Positions 2,655-11,350 of a stretch of DNA of 11,350 bases are shown piece after piece. The stretch is from an uncultured Oscillospiraceae bacterium (GTDB lineage Bacteria > Bacillota > Clostridia > UBA1381): assembly GCA_945876665.1 (NCBI GenBank), contig CAMCPC010000018.1, forward strand, positions 1 through 11,350. The letters are read 5' to 3'. The notes beneath the pieces were generated by a model. It was not told the DNA's origin. It did not search any database and saw only the letters and a program-made list of their open reading frames with translations. Each line of letters opens with the position of its first letter. Position 1 is the stretch's first letter. The translations under genes were made by a program, and so were the position numbers.

Positions 2655-2697
2655 GATAATAATAACTGTGTATCAATAAAAATTGGAGGAAATAAAT

Positions 2698-3045
2698 ATG
2701 AAAGGCATAAAATTAATTCTATTATCTGCAATTGTTACCGCAATGCTTACATCATGCGGCATGAACAATTCAAACACAAACAACGCCTCACCTGCTCCAA
2801 ATGAAACAAATTCAGGAAATGTAAGCAATACAAATAACGGAAGTGTTTCAAATGATGTAAATGACGCAGGCAACAGCGCGGGCAATGCCGTAAAAGATGT
2901 AGGCGAAGGAGCAGGCAACGCTGTAAAAGATGTCGGCGATGCAGCAGGTGACGTTGTTGAAGGCGTAGGTGATGCAGCAGGCGACGTTACAAGAGGTGTA
3001 GGCGATGCTGTCGGCACAAACGACGCTAATAATAACGGAAGATAA
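2698..3045 (+). CDS. Small lipoprotein with tandem 11-residue repeats
   Basis: 115 residues. The ATG at 2698 is chosen because GGAGG (2685-2689) lies 8 nt upstream; the in-frame TTG at 2683 lies inside that SD site. Residues 1-20 form a lipoprotein signal: a lysine, a hydrophobic stretch and the lipobox L-T-S-C with Cys20 as the lipidated residue. Residues 21-50 are an Asn/Ser/Thr-rich, low-complexity spacer. Residues 51-105 are five 11-residue units, the first degenerate, with the pattern G-[ND]-x-V-x-x-V-G-[DE]-[AG]-A. The tail is Asn-rich and ends NNNGR. It should be anchored on the outer face of the cytoplasmic membrane. No enzyme motif is present. Size, lipobox and glycine-rich pattern loosely recall entericidin-like small lipoproteins, but homology is not claimed. 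It is monocistronic, with its own terminator, and divergent from the stalk-protein gene. Confidence 0.85.
   Translation: MKGIKLILLSAIVTAMLTSCGMNNSNTNNASPAPNETNSGNVSNTNNGSVSNDVNDAGNSAGNAVKDVGEGAGNAVKDVGDAAGDVVEGVGDAAGDVTRGVGDAVGTNDANNNGR
2848..3012 (+). repeat. Five tandem 33-bp units encoding 11-residue repeats
   Basis: Units start at 2848 (degenerate), 2881, 2914, 2947 and 2980, each exactly 33 bp. Protein units are SNDVNDAGNSA, GNAVKDVGEGA, GNAVKDVGDAA, GDVVEGVGDAA and GDVTRGVGDAV. The last four are clearly related. Codons differ between units (for example GCC/GCT and GTA/GTC), so the repeat has aged at DNA level while the protein period is kept. Confidence 0.85.
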
Positions 3046-6160: not shown

Positions 6161-6190
6161 AAAATGGCGGAATTAATTTCCGCCATTTTT
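6160..6190. terminator. Bidirectional terminator whose loop holds a stop codon
   Basis: AAAAATGGCGGAA (6160-6172) pairs with TTCCGCCATTTTT (6178-6190) around the 5-nt loop TTAAT, giving a perfect 13-bp stem with A and T flanks. It ends pheA on the plus strand and the helicase-loader operon on the minus strand. The minus-strand stop codon (6173-6175) lies in the loop, so one stem arm also codes for the last residues of the loader. Confidence 0.92.
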
Positions 6191-7162
6191 CAGTTTCTGA
6201 ATCCTTATATCCTCACCGTAGAATTTATACAGCATAAAATACTCATACAATCTTGAAGTAAAACGCATACTGTACATTTTTGTTATTTCGTTTATCTGCA
6301 GGTTTGTATTTATAATAATCTTCTTATTTTTTGCTATTCTCTCATTTACAATATCAAACAAAAATGAAATATTATTTTTATTGAACGGCTCTGTTCCAAG
6401 GTCATCTATAATCAGCAAATCAGCATTATAAATATTGTCTATAACAGACCTGTCCGTATTTCTGCCGAATTTGTAATCTTCATATATTGTAAACAGCTTT
6501 GTTGCTCTAACATAAACAACCGTTTTGCCTCTGTCCATAATATCCTTTGCAATAGCGCTCGAAAGGAATGTCTTTCCCAGACCTGTCGTACCGTAAAATA
6601 CAAGTCCCTTTGTTTCATTTTCAAAATTTTCACAGAATCTTTTACAGTTATTATATATTTTCGTCATATTTTCATAGGGCGAAATTCCGTTTTCATATGG
6701 CTGTCTTGAATAGTAATCAATGGAAAACGTATCAAAATTCTGCGTCTTTATTATCTCCGCCATATTTGACATTGAATATGCCTCGTTTATCAGCTTTTGC
6801 TTAAAGCACTGACACTTCTTGCCGTTATCGTCATAGCCTGTATCATGGCAGTTTTCGCATACATATTTATATTTATCATAATCGTCAGAAATATTATTTT
6901 CCTGCATTATTTTTTTCTTTTCCGCGTTCAGCCTTTCCAAATTTTCTTTGAAATCAGCATTAAACTCGTCCTTTTTTTCGGGATTTTTCAGAATGTTATT
7001 CGTGTTGTCAAGTCCGCGTCTGAAAATTTCCTTATCTATTTCCCCTATTCTCGGAAAGTTTTTATTAACCTCTTCAATGCGCCTTTTTCTGTCATTTGCC
7101 GCATTCATACGAAGCTCCTCATATTCGTCCATGATTTTGTTTATTACTCTTTCTTCAGCCAT
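6173..7162 (-). CDS. DnaC/DnaI-like AAA+ ATPase, probable replicative helicase loader
   Basis: 329 residues. The ATG at 7162 is chosen because GGAGGTG lies 6 nt upstream; the in-frame GTG at 7171 overlaps that SD. Residues about 20-95 are charged and helical, possibly coiled coil. Next is a zinc-finger-like set, VCENCHDTGY...KKCQC (Cys102, 105, 117, 119), common in the clostridial DnaC/DnaI family. The AAA+ core has Walker A GTTGLGKT (191-198), Walker B LLIIDDLG (249-256), a sensor-1-like IINTN (283-287) and RFTSRL (300-305) as candidate arginine finger region. Such proteins load the hexameric helicase at oriC. Transposon-encoded IstB proteins share the core, but no transposase or inverted repeats are nearby, and it sits downstream of dnaA and dnaN, favouring a chromosomal loader. 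It overlaps the upstream gene by 8 nt and is probably translationally coupled. Last gene of the operon. Confidence 0.88.
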   Translation of the reverse strand: MAEERVINKIMDEYEELRMNAANDRKRRIEEVNKNFPRIGEIDKEIFRRGLDNTNNILKNPEKKDEFNADFKENLERLNAEKKKIMQENNISDDYDKYKYVCENCHDTGYDDNGKKCQCFKQKLINEAYSMSNMAEIIKTQNFDTFSIDYYSRQPYENGISPYENMTKIYNNCKRFCENFENETKGLVFYGTTGLGKTFLSSAIAKDIMDRGKTVVYVRATKLFTIYEDYKFGRNTDRSVIDNIYNADLLIIDDLGTEPFNKNNISFLFDIVNERIAKNKKIIINTNLQINEITKMYSMRFTSRLYEYFMLYKFYGEDIRIQKLKNGGN

Positions 7163-8606
7163 TATTTTCACCTCCGATTATTTCAAGAATTTCGTCTTTC
7201 TTTTGCAAAATTTCATCAAAACGATTTATATATTCAAGCGGGTCTTTGAAATTGAAAATTCTTTCAATCCTGTCACCCATCACAAGCTTTGTACTTCCTC
7301 CTCCTCCAAGGGCAATTATGGTTTGCTTTTCCTCCATAATATTTATGTTATATGTGCTCATATATCCGTCCTTGGCATAGCCTACATTTTCAAGATTGCC
7401 GGAAATATTTTTCTGACGATACATGTAGTAAGGCTTTCTGCCCGTCTGCGCCATACGTTTTTGAGTATAGGAAAGCATTTCATTCATGTCCTTTGACTTT
7501 GCCAGTTCCGTATCGGTAAACCGAAGTGACGCGGCTCTCTTTACCGCCATAGAATGAACAGTTATGTTTTCAGGATCAAGATTTATCACTTCATCAATAC
7601 TATATTTAAACATATCAACAGTTTCATCGGGAAGTCCCGCAATCAAATCCATATTTATGTTGTCAAAACCTATTCTTCTTGCCATATTAAAGCAGTTTTT
7701 TACCATATCGGGAGTGTGCTTTCTTCCTACCTTAACAAGTGTTTCATTATTCATGGTCTGCGGATTTATACTTATCCTGTTTACTCCTCCCTTTTTTGCC
7801 TCAAGCAGCTTTGCTTCCGTAATAGTGTCCGGTCTGCCCGCCTCAAGGGTAAATTCCTTTATTTTACTGAAATCAAAATTTTCCTTTAATCTGTCAAAAA
7901 TACTTTTCAAATGATGCGGTTCAAGAGTTGTCGGCGTTCCGCCGCCGATATATATATTTTCAACGTAAGCGCCCATTTTTTCTATAATTTCCGCTGTTTT
8001 ATCAATTTCAAGCAGCAGCTTTTCTACAAAGCCGTTCATATATTTTCCACTTACCCTTATATCGGTTGAAACAAATGAACAATAAAGACAGCGCGTAGGA
8101 CAAAACGGAATACCAATATATATACTCACGCTGTTTTCGCCTATTTCATCAAGAAGCGCCTTTTCATTTTCAGCGACAGTTTTAGCAAGCTCTATCTTTT
8201 CATCGGAAACCTCATAAACTTCCTTTAAAATCCTCACAACCTCGCTGTCGCTGTAACCCTCCTCCATAAGAGAGCGAACATTTTTAGCGGGACGTATGCC
8301 GCACATCACACCCCATGGAATATTTATATCCTTTATCTTTTTTGCCGCATGACAAAACGACTTCGTACATGAAGCCGTAAATACCTTTTTTATAAGCTGC
8401 TGAGTTTTATTTTCCGTATCAAAACTATAGTAGTAGTCATCAAAATATGTATCATTACCGTATATTATTTCTGTGTATACATTTATAGTTTTATCCTTAT
8501 ATTCAAAATTTGAAAATACGCAGATGTCCTCCTCCGCGCTGAAAAAAAGCCCGTAAAAAAGCTTCATTTCGTAATCACATTCGTAACCGTTCTGAATAAT
8601 AAGCAT
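7155..8606 (-). CDS. hemZ: HemZ-type radical SAM protein (coproporphyrinogen III dehydrogenase family)
   Basis: Oxygen-independent coproporphyrinogen oxidase-like enzyme acting in tetrapyrrole synthesis. 483 residues, usual for HemZ. Residues 1 to about 95 are the HemZ-specific N-terminal extension. PWGVMCGIRPAK (97-108) is a typical HemZ motif. The radical SAM core starts at IGIPFCPTRCLYCSF (164-178) with the [4Fe-4S] cysteines Cys169, Cys173 and Cys176 (CX3CX2C), then GGGTPT (221-226) for SAM binding, EAGRPDTI and RISINPQTM. The C-terminal part has KPYYMYRQKNISGNLENVGY, also characteristic of HemZ. The fourth cysteine found in E. coli HemN (CX3CX2CXC) is Phe here, as expected in this family. 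AAAGGG sits 7 nt before the ATG, inside the end of the upstream gene. True coproporphyrinogen activity is not proven for all HemZ proteins, and no other heme genes are nearby. Confidence 0.92.
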   Translation of the reverse strand: MLIIQNGYECDYEMKLFYGLFFSAEEDICVFSNFEYKDKTINVYTEIIYGNDTYFDDYYYSFDTENKTQQLIKKVFTASCTKSFCHAAKKIKDINIPWGVMCGIRPAKNVRSLMEEGYSDSEVVRILKEVYEVSDEKIELAKTVAENEKALLDEIGENSVSIYIGIPFCPTRCLYCSFVSTDIRVSGKYMNGFVEKLLLEIDKTAEIIEKMGAYVENIYIGGGTPTTLEPHHLKSIFDRLKENFDFSKIKEFTLEAGRPDTITEAKLLEAKKGGVNRISINPQTMNNETLVKVGRKHTPDMVKNCFNMARRIGFDNINMDLIAGLPDETVDMFKYSIDEVINLDPENITVHSMAVKRAASLRFTDTELAKSKDMNEMLSYTQKRMAQTGRKPYYMYRQKNISGNLENVGYAKDGYMSTYNINIMEEKQTIIALGGGGSTKLVMGDRIERIFNFKDPLEYINRFDEILQKKDEILEIIGGENNG

Positions 8607-9250: not shown

Positions 9251-10384
9251 TTAATTATACAATCTTACGGGTAATATCATATAAACATAAGAATCGTCAC
9301 CGTTTACACTTCTTATAAAGCAGCCGCTTGTTGGCGCGGAAAATTCCAATTTAACCTTATCCTCGTCACAGGCTGACAGAGCATCAAGTAAAAATCTGCA
9401 GTTAAATCCAATAAGAAGCTCGCCGCCCTCAAGCTCAACAGGTACAGTATCATTAACCTGTCCCTTATTTGTTATACATGACACATCAATCTTATTATAC
9501 GCAATATTAAAGCGCACCGGAATTTTATTTTCCGACTTTGCCGAAATATCATCATTAATAAGGAGCAGTGCTCTTTCAAGGCTGTCAACAATATATCTTT
9601 TTTCAGCCACAACGTTCAAAGAATTAACAGCAGATATAATAGCTTCATATCTCAAAAATTCACCGTCAAGAAGTCTTGAATAAACCTGATAATGTCCGAA
9701 ATCCATAAGTACTGTTCTGTCAGATACAATAATATCAACATTATCATCTTCATCCTTAAGAACCTTAAGAAGTTCTCTTAGTGTCATTCCCGGAACAACG
9801 AATTTATTATTTTCAACGCTTTCCTTAATTTCCTCTTTAACTACAGCAAGTCTGTGACCGTCAGAGGCAACCACATTAAGATAATTATTTTTTATCTCAA
9901 ACAGCGCGCCCGTAAGAACAGGCTTTTTACCCTCGTTCTGAGCAACAAAGGATATAGTTTTTCTTATTAGATTTTTCAGATTTTTCTGAGAAAGTGAAAA
10001 TCTGAAATTTTCATCAAGTACGGGAGCAGATGGAAATTCATCCGGAGCAATACCCTGAATATTAAATTCACTTGAACCGCTCTTTATCTTAGTAATAAAA
10101 TTTGACGGATTTACGCTTATTGTAACATCACCCTCCGGCAGACGTCTTACAATCTCACCGAACATCTTTGAAGCAAGCGCTATAGTTCCGCCCTCTGTAA
10201 CTGTGCATTTGGTATTATATTCAATACATAAATCAATATTGTTACCTGTAAACACAACATTTCCGTCACCGTTTGCATCTATCTTTATACATTCAAGTAT
10301 AGGAAGAGCTGTTTTAGGTGCAATAGCTCTCTGAACAGTGTTAATAATATCGACAAGCTGTGGTTTACTGCAGATTAATTTCAT
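9251..10384 (-). CDS. dnaN: DNA polymerase III beta subunit (sliding clamp)
   Basis: Ring-shaped dimer that tethers DNA polymerase III to DNA and also recruits repair proteins. 377 residues, full length for the three-domain clamp. Recognisable parts are TVQRAIAPKTALPILECIKIDA near the N-terminus, LASKMFGEIVRRLP, IKSGSSEFNIQGIAPDEFP, VLTGALFEIKNNYLNVVASDGHRLAV in the middle domain and the C-terminal MILPVRLYN, which corresponds to the conserved MP(M/V)R(L) end near the partner-binding pocket. GAGGAG (10395-10400) lies 10 nt before the ATG. It is downstream of dnaA in the usual order, and begins an apparent operon continuing into the MBL-fold hydrolase, hemZ and helicase-loader genes. A TTATCAACA site lies 27 nt upstream of the start codon, so DnaA could influence its expression. 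Confidence 0.97.
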   Translation of the reverse strand: MKLICSKPQLVDIINTVQRAIAPKTALPILECIKIDANGDGNVVFTGNNIDLCIEYNTKCTVTEGGTIALASKMFGEIVRRLPEGDVTISVNPSNFITKIKSGSSEFNIQGIAPDEFPSAPVLDENFRFSLSQKNLKNLIRKTISFVAQNEGKKPVLTGALFEIKNNYLNVVASDGHRLAVVKEEIKESVENNKFVVPGMTLRELLKVLKDEDDNVDIIVSDRTVLMDFGHYQVYSRLLDGEFLRYEAIISAVNSLNVVAEKRYIVDSLERALLLINDDISAKSENKIPVRFNIAYNKIDVSCITNKGQVNDTVPVELEGGELLIGFNCRFLLDALSACDEDKVKLEFSAPTSGCFIRSVNGDDSYVYMILPVRLYN

Positions 10385-10410
10385 AACTTATTATCTCCTC
10401 GCGTATAAAT

Positions 10411-10419
10411 TTATCAACA
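10411..10419 (+). promoter_or_regulatory. dnaA box: Candidate DnaA box TTATCAACA
   Basis: TTATCAACA differs from the classical TTATCCACA at one position (C6 to A). It lies in the dnaN leader region, 27 nt from the start codon. The same variant recurs twice more in this gap. Confidence 0.55.
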
Positions 10420-10441
10420 TCATTGATCTGATGATTTATAC

Positions 10442-10483
10442 TATATATTTATATATATAATATATTATATTTTAATAATAATA
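10442..10483. other. Pure A/T run, candidate DNA unwinding element
   Basis: Forty-two consecutive A or T bases, mostly alternating TA steps, bounded by C10441 and G10484. Such easily melted tracts next to DnaA sites are typical of origin unwinding elements. Position between dnaA and dnaN supports this reading, which remains inferred. Confidence 0.55.
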
Positions 10484-10490
10484 GTAATAA
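10473..10490 (+). other. DnaA-trio-like triplet series
   Basis: Six consecutive triplets, TAA TAA TAA TAG TAA TAA, fit the DnaA-trio pattern (3'-[G/A]A[T/A]-5' read on the same strand). They are followed after GGAA by CGTGGATTG (10495-10503), which shares the GTGGAT core of an inverted DnaA box. The order triplets, short G-containing spacer, box is the one described for bacterial unwinding systems. Confidence 0.45.
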
Positions 10491-10568
10491 GGAACGTGGA
10501 TTGATGGAAAAGTAGTTTAAATCAAGTAAATATGCCAAAATTTATTAACCCTTTCATGCGGGATTTAG

Positions 10569-10577
10569 TGTTGATAA
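10569..10577 (-). promoter_or_regulatory. dnaA box: Candidate DnaA box TTATCAACA (inverted)
   Basis: TGTTGATAA on the plus strand is the exact complement of TTATCAACA. It forms an inverted pair with the next site: GTTGATAA (10570-10577), a 7-nt A/T spacer, TTATCAAC (10585-10592). Confidence 0.55.
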
Positions 10578-10584
10578 TTTAATT

Positions 10585-10593
10585 TTATCAACC
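10585..10593 (+). promoter_or_regulatory. dnaA box: Candidate DnaA box TTATCAACC
   Basis: Shares eight of nine bases with the TTATCAACA sites, differing only at the last base. Head-to-head with the site at 10569-10577; together they could also form an 8-bp stem, but the lack of GC pairs and of a T-tract argues against a dnaA terminator. Confidence 0.5.
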
Positions 10594-10654
10594 ATATATA
10601 AATTACATAAATTTACATATTTTTTTATTCACGCACATTTCCACCATTTATCCC

Positions 10655-11350
10655 CTACATTGACTCTAAATCCCTTGTTATATATGTGACATCGGAATTA
10701 AGAGTTTCGTTTGTATTGATTTCTGATTCAATCTTTTCTATATTATGCTTTACCGTTGTTCGGTCCTTTGAAAATTCCTTTGAAATAATTGTATCGTTCA
10801 TGCCCAGAAGCTTACGGCACAGATACATTGCCACCTGACGCGGAACGGCAATTTCCTTTGTTTTGATTTTGCCTGTTATGTCATTTTCGGAAATGTTATA
10901 GTATACAGAAACCTTTTGTATAATTGTTTTAGGACTGATTTTTGAAGAATCATCACTTGAAATAACAGTTTCAAGCGTATTCTTTACAAAGTCCATTGTT
11001 ATATCACATTGTTTTATTTCCGACATTGATATTACGTTAAGAAGCGCGCCCTCAAGCTCACGTATGCTTGAACGTATATGGTCAGCGATATATCCGAGAA
11101 TATCCTCATTAATATTTGTATGATGTTCAAGTGCCTTGTTCTGGAGTATGGCTATTCTTGTTTCATAATTAGGAAGAGATATATCTATTGTGAAGCCTTG
11201 TCCGAAGCGTGTTATCATTCTTGTGGTAAGAGTTTTAAGCTCGCCGGGACGTCTGTCGCTTGTAAGCACAATCTGCTTGCCGAGTGAAAAAAGCTCGTTG
11301 AAGGTATGGAAAAATTCCTCCTGCACAGCCTCCTTATGCTCAAGAAACTG
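10655..11350 (-). CDS. dnaA: Chromosomal replication initiator DnaA, C-terminal part (5' end outside window), divergent DNA-binding signature
   Basis: AAA+ initiator that binds DnaA boxes and opens oriC. The frame is open to base 11350, leaving 231 residues; the N-terminal domains and Walker A/B lie outside. An internal GTG at 11326 is not the start, because QFLEHKEA before it continues the family sequence. Visible parts: QEEFFHTFNELF, sensor 1 IVLTSDRRPGEL, ITRFGQGF with the box VII arginine, ETRIAIL and sensor 2 SSIRELEGALL. Domain IV follows: VPRQVAMYLCRKLLGMNDTIISKEF, then SKDRTTVKHNIEKI. In almost all DnaA proteins the signature reads FGGRDHTTVxHA. Here it is one residue shorter, the histidine equivalent to E. 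coli His434 is Arg, and the position of E. coli Arg399 is Lys (bases 10862-10864). Both contact box bases in E. coli. Synteny with dnaN makes this the true initiator, not a paralogue. Confidence 0.96.
   Translation of the reverse strand, partial: QFLEHKEAVQEEFFHTFNELFSLGKQIVLTSDRRPGELKTLTTRMITRFGQGFTIDISLPNYETRIAILQNKALEHHTNINEDILGYIADHIRSSIRELEGALLNVISMSEIKQCDITMDFVKNTLETVISSDDSSKISPKTIIQKVSVYYNISENDITGKIKTKEIAVPRQVAMYLCRKLLGMNDTIISKEFSKDRTTVKHNIEKIESEINTNETLNSDVTYITRDLESM

Follow-up and report, generated by a model that had tools for sequence, protein, structure and literature searches.

Few protein–DNA pairs of bacteria are as conserved as DnaA and its box, and searches for boxes begin from TTATCCACA. 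The window, an 11,350-bp contig of a 292-contig MAG, ends inside a dnaA gene in which the start of the domain IV recognition helix departs from the usual signature, which raises the question of whether this lineage also uses different DnaA boxes. We consider it probable, both parts taken together, that the gene is a genuine chromosomal dnaA belonging to an uncultured family of clostridia, and that the recognition helix has been rewritten in steps in this family, with the origin boxes changing in step. The residues, their distribution, the box statistics and the layout of boxes and DnaA-trio given below are direct observations.

The dnaA gene of the window

The alignment ruler is domain IV of E. 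coli DnaA; its residues 399, 423 and 432–439 match those named in papers. By this ruler, the helix in the window reads K432-D433-R434-T435-T436-V437-K438-H439, and one Gly of FGG is absent. The preliminary description had noted the signature FSKDRTTVKH, one residue short, and a Lys at the Arg399 position, both correct by translation, but it overlooked R432K and Lys438, the latter replacing the usual M, I or L (K438 occurs in six of the 14 loci of the genus). Base contacts have been reported for positions 399, 423, 432–435 and 438–439, so that Lys438, too, occupies a reported DNA contact (PMC5043019). Of the canonical base-contact set (R399, D433, H434, T435 and H439), the window keeps D433, T435 and H439 and carries K399 and R434; these five residues and P423 are reported as conserved in C. 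difficile and other Firmicutes (PMC7561715).

The translation is one open frame of 231 aa with 0 internal stops. Both domains that mark a DnaA were found, the AAA+ domain (PF00308, 62.1 bits) and the C-terminal HTH (PF08299, 77.5 bits, cut-off 31.5), each above its cut-off, together with a dnaN neighbour, a box cluster and a DnaA-trio (Table 1). The TIGR00362 score (251.5 bits; profile positions 210–436 of 437 matched) lies under the cut-off of 343.9, since the contig breaks off within the gene; open frames in the 13 other genus genomes with a match measure 443–475 aa. The “otherwise normal DnaA” of the preliminary description can bear on the C-terminal 231 aa only, as the window ends inside dnaA and domains I–II lie beyond the contig.

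Table 1. Positions of the origin region and dnaA features in the window.
Feature	Coordinates	Strand	Evidence
dnaN, DNA polymerase III beta clamp	9251..10384	-	TIGR00663 248.7 bits, cut-off 137.65
dnaA–dnaN intergenic region, 270 bp, candidate oriC2: box cluster, DnaA-trio-like repeat, AT-rich tract	10385..10654	.	sequence scan
putative DnaA box TTATCAACA just upstream of dnaN	10411..10419	+	pattern scan
DnaA-trio-like repeat TTATTACTATTATTATTAA, then AT-rich tract	10472..10490	-	anchored scan
trio-proximal box 2 (B. subtilis box 7 place), CAATCCACG; G9 not A9	10495..10503	-	anchored scan
trio-proximal DnaA box 1 (B. subtilis box 6 place), TTTTCCATC; T8 C9 not C8 A9	10503..10511	-	anchored scan
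box-like TTATTAACC, position 9 not A	10542..10550	+	pattern scan
putative DnaA box TTATCAACA	10569..10577	-	pattern scan
box-like TTATCAACC, position 9 not A	10585..10593	+	pattern scan
box-like TTATTCACG, position 9 not A	10625..10633	+	pattern scan
dnaA, C-terminal 231 aa, end of AAA+ domain and domain IV	10655..11350	-	PF00308 62.1 bits, PF08299 77.5 bits
FSKDRTTVKH, start of recognition helix; H434R, R432K, Lys438, one residue shorter than FGGRDHTTVxH	10745..10774	-	translation and E. coli alignment
KIKTKEIAVPRQ in the window dnaA	10835-10870	-	translation
Lys codon at the E. coli Arg399 position (basic loop, minor groove); not family-specific	10862..10864	-	alignment

An artefact, whether a faulty contig end or a dnaA of foreign origin in the MAG, could be suspected, since the 11-kb window is an entire contig, one of 292 in the assembly, and breaks off inside dnaA. 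This explanation is refuted for practical purposes: four other genomes of the genus, at 85–91% identity, also have R434 and the short form. Sequencing error is excluded because the identical FSKDRTTVKH recurs in 21 of the 120 homologues listed out of 126 found, and 66 of the 120 have R434. These relatives and homologues equally rule out contamination for the window dnaA.

Eight of the 120 listed homologues (P0025–P0029, P0031, P0033 and P0034) carry FSKDRTTARS, where His439 was apparently lost a second time, close to the window's genus; this motif was found in none of the 55 family loci. Elsewhere in the window, past dnaN, an MBL-fold-like protein and hemZ, lies a gene for a DnaC/DnaI-like ATPase (6173–7171, minus strand; PRK06835, 358.1 bits, cut-off 215). 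A small protein encoded at 2683–3045 (plus strand) has a lipoprotein-like start by eye and GNAVKDVGDAAGDV-type repeats, and gave no Pfam match.

Distribution of the residue changes

The comparison covers 176 dnaA loci, of which 55 belong to the window's family, 20 to three further families of its order and 101 to a class sample. The family sample yielded a match in 54 of 70 genomes (56 match rows, one of which, a 63-residue fragment, was left out), and the class sample in 106 of 108; an order-level search brought no new genomes. Arg434 occurs in 53 of the 55 family loci, including all 14 of the genus, and in 0 of the 121 other class loci (His in 113, Tyr in eight): H434R is a family trait. A tree computed with a masked signature places the origin of Arg434 at the base of the family, beside L046 (family f3, His434). 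Among 80 further loci from a named collection, Arg434 occurs in three, each of which duplicates a family locus counted above (the last 300 DnaA residues match those of L016, L039 and L075 exactly). Ser438-Ser439 is found in six genus loci, the signature type of this subclade being FGKDRSTVSS.

The two family loci without Arg434 are L045 (genome G031) and L076, the second dnaA of G086. The latter MAG has two dnaA contigs, one of the family type (L075, DRTS) and one of the ordinary type (L076, DHTT); L076 falls among other class members on the tree and is probably a contaminant. L045 carries His434 and lies inside the family, on a long branch, and the best 13 other matches of its DnaN are all family members. 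Its trio box is TTATACACA, with an anchor score (18.2) below the threshold of 19.5 used here, and its gap contains several TTATCCACA; L045 and L076 together have nine TTWTCCACA. L045 is either an old branch that keeps the ancestral state or a reversal.

Boxes of Arg434 and His434 origins

The trio-proximal box, at the place of B. subtilis box 6, was located by TTWT and the trio periodicity at 19–23 bp, with positions 5–9 unused; the conservation of TTWT and of the trio spacing is not independent evidence, because both served to find the box. At the threshold of 19.5, 85 of the 174 stretches scanned yielded an anchor, against 0 of 532 shuffled stretches. In the window, TTTTCCATC takes the place of a canonical box with C8 and A9.

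C8 is present in 47/50 of these boxes at His434 loci and 4/27 at Arg434 loci without S439 (Arg434-Ser439, 5/6; Tyr434, 1/2). The corresponding figures for His434, Arg434 without S439 and Arg434-Ser439 are 45/50, 7/27 and 2/6 for A9, 49/50, 25/27 and 0/6 for A7, and 29/50, 25/27 and 6/6 for C6. Fisher's test on C8, His versus Arg, gives p = 1.5e-12 with related loci treated as independent, a value that is not a probability of chance because of that relatedness. The contrast persists across score thresholds (His vs. Arg, 52/57 vs. 8/36 at 18; 18/18 vs. 0/5 at 22.5). All 42 anchored loci with both His434 and His439 have C8, the three His434 exceptions having Tyr or Ser439. A second His434 set, of which 41 out of 77 loci were anchored (0/41 with a DnaA identical to one in the first set), has C8 in 41/41, A9 in 37/41 and A7 in 41/41. 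C8 is kept in four of the eight R434 loci with Tyr439. Four of the eight genus His439 loci were anchored; by eye, the box is TTTTCCAAC in L004, L005 and L007, and L006 has none that is clear. AT bias was rejected as the cause of the box change: AT-rich His434 gaps (GC < 0.28) keep C8 and A9 in 27 of 29 cases each, and the change of A9 to C or G opposes the bias.

On a tree of 86 rows (the anchored loci plus L045), position 8 changed nine times in the Arg434 part (33 loci, S439 included, length 12.0) versus three times in the His/Tyr434 part (53 loci, length 37.5). For the other positions, the changes number 10 vs. 5 (position 9), 5 vs. 2 (position 7), 6 vs. 12 (position 5) and, in the opposite direction, 2 vs. 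16 (position 6); therefore, it is constrained box positions that moved. Arg434 arose about once, leaving two independent His/Arg pairs, with which a sign test cannot reach significance; in random pairings, the same direction was obtained in 1.7 (position 8) and 1.6 (position 9) of 2.

Free EM motif discovery gave as its best result an AT repeat in both genus subgroups and an A-run in family f2. As it was usable for the class and family results only, we relied on the anchored boxes and on conditional substitution profiles around TTWTNMACA in the dnaA–dnaN gap, set against dinucleotide shuffles. In the 82 Asp433-His434 class loci, bases other than A7, C8 and A9 all stay at or below 1.8-fold at positions 7–9, and position 6 shows C at 32-fold and A at 8.6-fold. 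The 39 family R434 loci outside the genus have a relaxed position 9 (C 4.1-, G 6.9- and T 3.4-fold), a somewhat relaxed position 7 (G 6.0- and T 2.7-fold) and a position 8 that stays C (T 1.7-fold). In the eight genus His439 loci, A is favoured at position 6 (16.8- vs. 8.0-fold), position 7 stays A and position 9 is also G (10 seen vs. 0.5 expected). The six genus Ser439 loci have G (8 vs. 0.6) or T (11 vs. 0.4) at position 7, with A at chance (1 vs. 0.5), their boxes being TTWTCC(G/T)C.

Patterns in the gap were also counted, as seen versus expected from base shuffles. Family loci beyond the genus have TTWTCCAT 37 times vs. 1.8, and the class has it 4 times vs. 2.9; within the genus, the counts are 5 vs. 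0.3 with His439 and 0 vs. 0.2 with Ser439. TTWTCC(G/T)C is seen 22 times vs. 0.1 in the Ser439 loci, 0 vs. 0.1 in the genus His439 loci and 6 vs. 2.4 in the class; family loci beyond the genus have 15 vs. 0.6, that is, some relaxation of position 7 without S439. For TTWTNMACA, the counts are 121 vs. 6.7 in family loci beyond the genus, 25 vs. 1.4 in the genus His439 loci and 1 vs. 1.0 in the S439 loci. A search for classical TTATCCACA boxes, which might have overturned the idea of altered specificity, found 0 in the dnaA–dnaN gap of the window and one in that of a single genus locus out of 14 (L008).

The preliminary description had suggested a lineage with altered box specificity, pointing to Lys399, to Arg in place of His and to a signature one residue short, with TTATCAACA as the proposed target. 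At the level of sequence, the first part holds: origin boxes in the R434 family depart from the H434 clostridial ones at positions 8–9 and, in one subclade, at 7. The particulars fared less well. K399 is present in all 14 genus loci, 16 of the 41 other family loci (thus only 30/55 in the family) and 14 of the 101 class loci; the family profile at box positions 1–4, the side read by Arg399, is much like that of the class, so that the Arg399 to Lys change accompanies a nearly unaltered 5′ end, and the only two anchored H434 cases with K399 have ordinary boxes. The short form, universal in the genus (14/14), is found in three of the 39 other R434 family loci and in 19 of 95 H434 class loci, of which 7/9 anchored ones keep C8. 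Lys399 and the deletion by itself were accordingly both rejected as the cause. As to TTATCAACA, A6 is indeed enriched, and the family is shifted further to A over the whole gap (A:C at position 6, 102:44 vs. 118:167 with D433-H434), but A6 is also common with a normal DnaA (8.6-fold with D433-H434, as above) and C6 in the trio-proximal box is more fixed with R434 (25/27) than with H434 (29/50), and a simple switch was rejected.

Could the residue changes be neutral? R434 DnaA would then still read TTATCCACA, the trio-proximal box having been weakened by drift, with other boxes recruiting DnaA cooperatively. The strong enrichment of TTWTNMACA in the family (121 vs. 6.7) fits such a scenario, as does the reported use of weak boxes by DnaA with bound neighbours (PMC6727663). 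We nevertheless judge it quite unlikely: TTWTCCAT, the altered form, is enriched in its own right (37 vs. 1.8), C6 is kept in 25/27, A9 became C in 15/27, in AT-rich DNA and against mutation bias, and classical boxes in the S439 gaps are at chance (1 vs. 1.0). Moreover, in B. subtilis, where boxes 7 and 6 are reported to be bound by two DnaA domain IVs (PMC10721633), the upstream box of the pair, the equivalent of the one that changed here, is described as the required one, tending nearer to consensus (PMC8287927, PMC6669920).

Upstream of dnaA, at least two TTWTNMACA within 450 bp are present in two of the 36 R434 loci outside the genus that have sufficient sequence, compared with 56 of 76 class loci: the upstream box cluster is mostly missing in these family loci. 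TTWTCC(G/T)C occurs there 8 times vs. 1.9 in the family outside the genus, 3 vs. 0.3 in the genus H439 loci and 0 vs. 0.5 in the S439 loci. In the S439 subclade, TTWTNMACA is seen upstream 11 times vs. 0.7 expected. A divergent sigma-70-like promoter (TTGTGA-17-TATAAT, 10 of 12; three promoter-like sites in this stretch vs. a mean of 1.1 in shuffles) is predicted in L016, where its TATAAT shares bases with TTATACACA and its first hexamer with TTTTTCACA. By eye, this layout fits nine of the 11 upstream matches, the exceptions being one in L010 and one in L013. The predicted promoter offers another reason for most of these classical matches, which could still be boxes. Searched with a simple pattern, none of 16 family loci (13 genus, three others) showed rpmH ahead of dnaA.

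Proposed stepwise change of helix and box, and related systems

The changed residues 434, 438 and 439 lie where the changed bases 7–9 are read, because helix 434–451 is reported to read 5′-TnCACA, with Arg399 reading 5′-TTA (PMC5742627). We infer that the altered residues brought about the altered boxes, that binding behaves accordingly and that initiation works as in B. subtilis. Outside the S439 subclade, R434 appears to have loosened the box requirement without switching it cleanly, because TTWTNMACA is still common and half of the R434-Tyr439 loci keep C8 (4/8). S439 alone is insufficient: H434 loci with S439 keep A7 (L120, L163, L178 and L045).

The order of events may have been the reverse, with the boxes changing first, or another cause such as the loss of the upstream cluster intervening, and the protein following; the correlation would then reflect common ancestry. 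R434 has about one origin, and the upstream cluster was also lost in the family (2/36 R434 loci outside the genus vs. 56/76 in the class), as this ordering would have it. We hold it to be unlikely: the changed positions 7–9 are those read by the changed helix, position 6 of the trio box became more fixed instead, and a second protein change (S438-S439) accompanies a second, different box change within one genus.

In the stepwise scheme that we prefer, H434R would have come first, at the base of the family, with TTWTN(A/C)AC-type boxes still used and C8 and A9 no longer demanded. The trio-proximal box would then have drifted mostly to TTWTCCAT(C/G/A), and other boxes would have come to end in A, G, C or T. 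In a second step, in the window's genus, one Gly before the helix would have been lost, Lys would have become fixed at 399 and position 438 would have been released from constraint (K, S, T or G). In a third, restricted to one subclade of the genus, S438-S439 would have appeared, after which A7 would be unused and the boxes would be TTWTCC(G/T)C. Initiation would otherwise proceed as in B. subtilis, two tandem boxes loading DnaA beside the DnaA-trio. A stricter version, in which H434R frees positions 8–9, S438-S439 shifts position 7 from A to G/T, one genus harbours two mutually non-recognising DnaA/oriC pairs and L045 is a reversal of both, is put forward tentatively, as possible rather than probable.

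The clade may thus be a natural record of how an essential protein–DNA recognition code can drift, and of how such a code might shift without cell death. The joint change of helix residues and box bases offers a ready-made test of residue-to-base reading and candidate orthogonal DnaA/oriC pairs. Should binding confirm it, the evolution of initiator specificity could be put to a direct test with B. subtilis chimeras. Origins of this kind may escape finders tuned to TTATCCACA.

Canonical Firmicutes systems, e.g., those of B. subtilis and C. difficile (basal unwinding system: tandem boxes 6/7, spacer and DnaA-trio), share with the family the dnaA–dnaN order, PF08299 and tandem boxes about 21 bp before the DnaA-trio. 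The family differs by H434R, by R432K in many members and often by K399, with one residue fewer in the genus; its boxes differ at 8–9 (at 7 in one subclade), and the upstream cluster is mostly missing. In Thermotoga maritima, domain IV substitutions are reported to alter the box (PMC6669920), which is ACCTACCAC / AAACCTACCACC, and the signature FNRSHPVV is as short as that of the window. Thermotoga changed most of its signature and the whole box, whereas the window's family keeps TTWT and much of the box and changed stepwise among close relatives; no RSHPVV-like signature is present in the window, which reads DRTTVKH and has TTWTNMACA-like boxes in its gap. Epsilonproteobacterial DnaA (H. pylori, A. 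butzleri) is likewise reported to combine an altered box preference, for T5, with variation in the same helix, at 435, 438 and 439; there, the 433–434 dyad is reported as conserved and the shift, at position 5, is milder (PMC5043019), whereas in the window's family 434 is changed and 7–9 are affected. Among the open-literature matches listed, no title or abstract beginning mentions an Arg434 DnaA lineage or a stepwise box change within one genus.

Other families of the order deviate in their own ways. In family f4 (L029, L047), two of three loci read HYTT, and the trio box of L029 is TTTTCCTTA; box matches lie upstream of dnaA (C6, 7 vs. 0.2 expected), with none in the dnaA–dnaN gap. Family f2 (L048–L063) has NHAT in 16/16 loci (Asn433 and Ala435, with Asn439 in 13/16), which reads as another rewritten signature in the same order. 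The fetched stretches of f2 contain no dnaN; TTWTN(A/C)ACA is found 0 times after dnaA for both A6 and C6, and upstream of dnaA the C6 form is seen five times vs. 1.3 expected.
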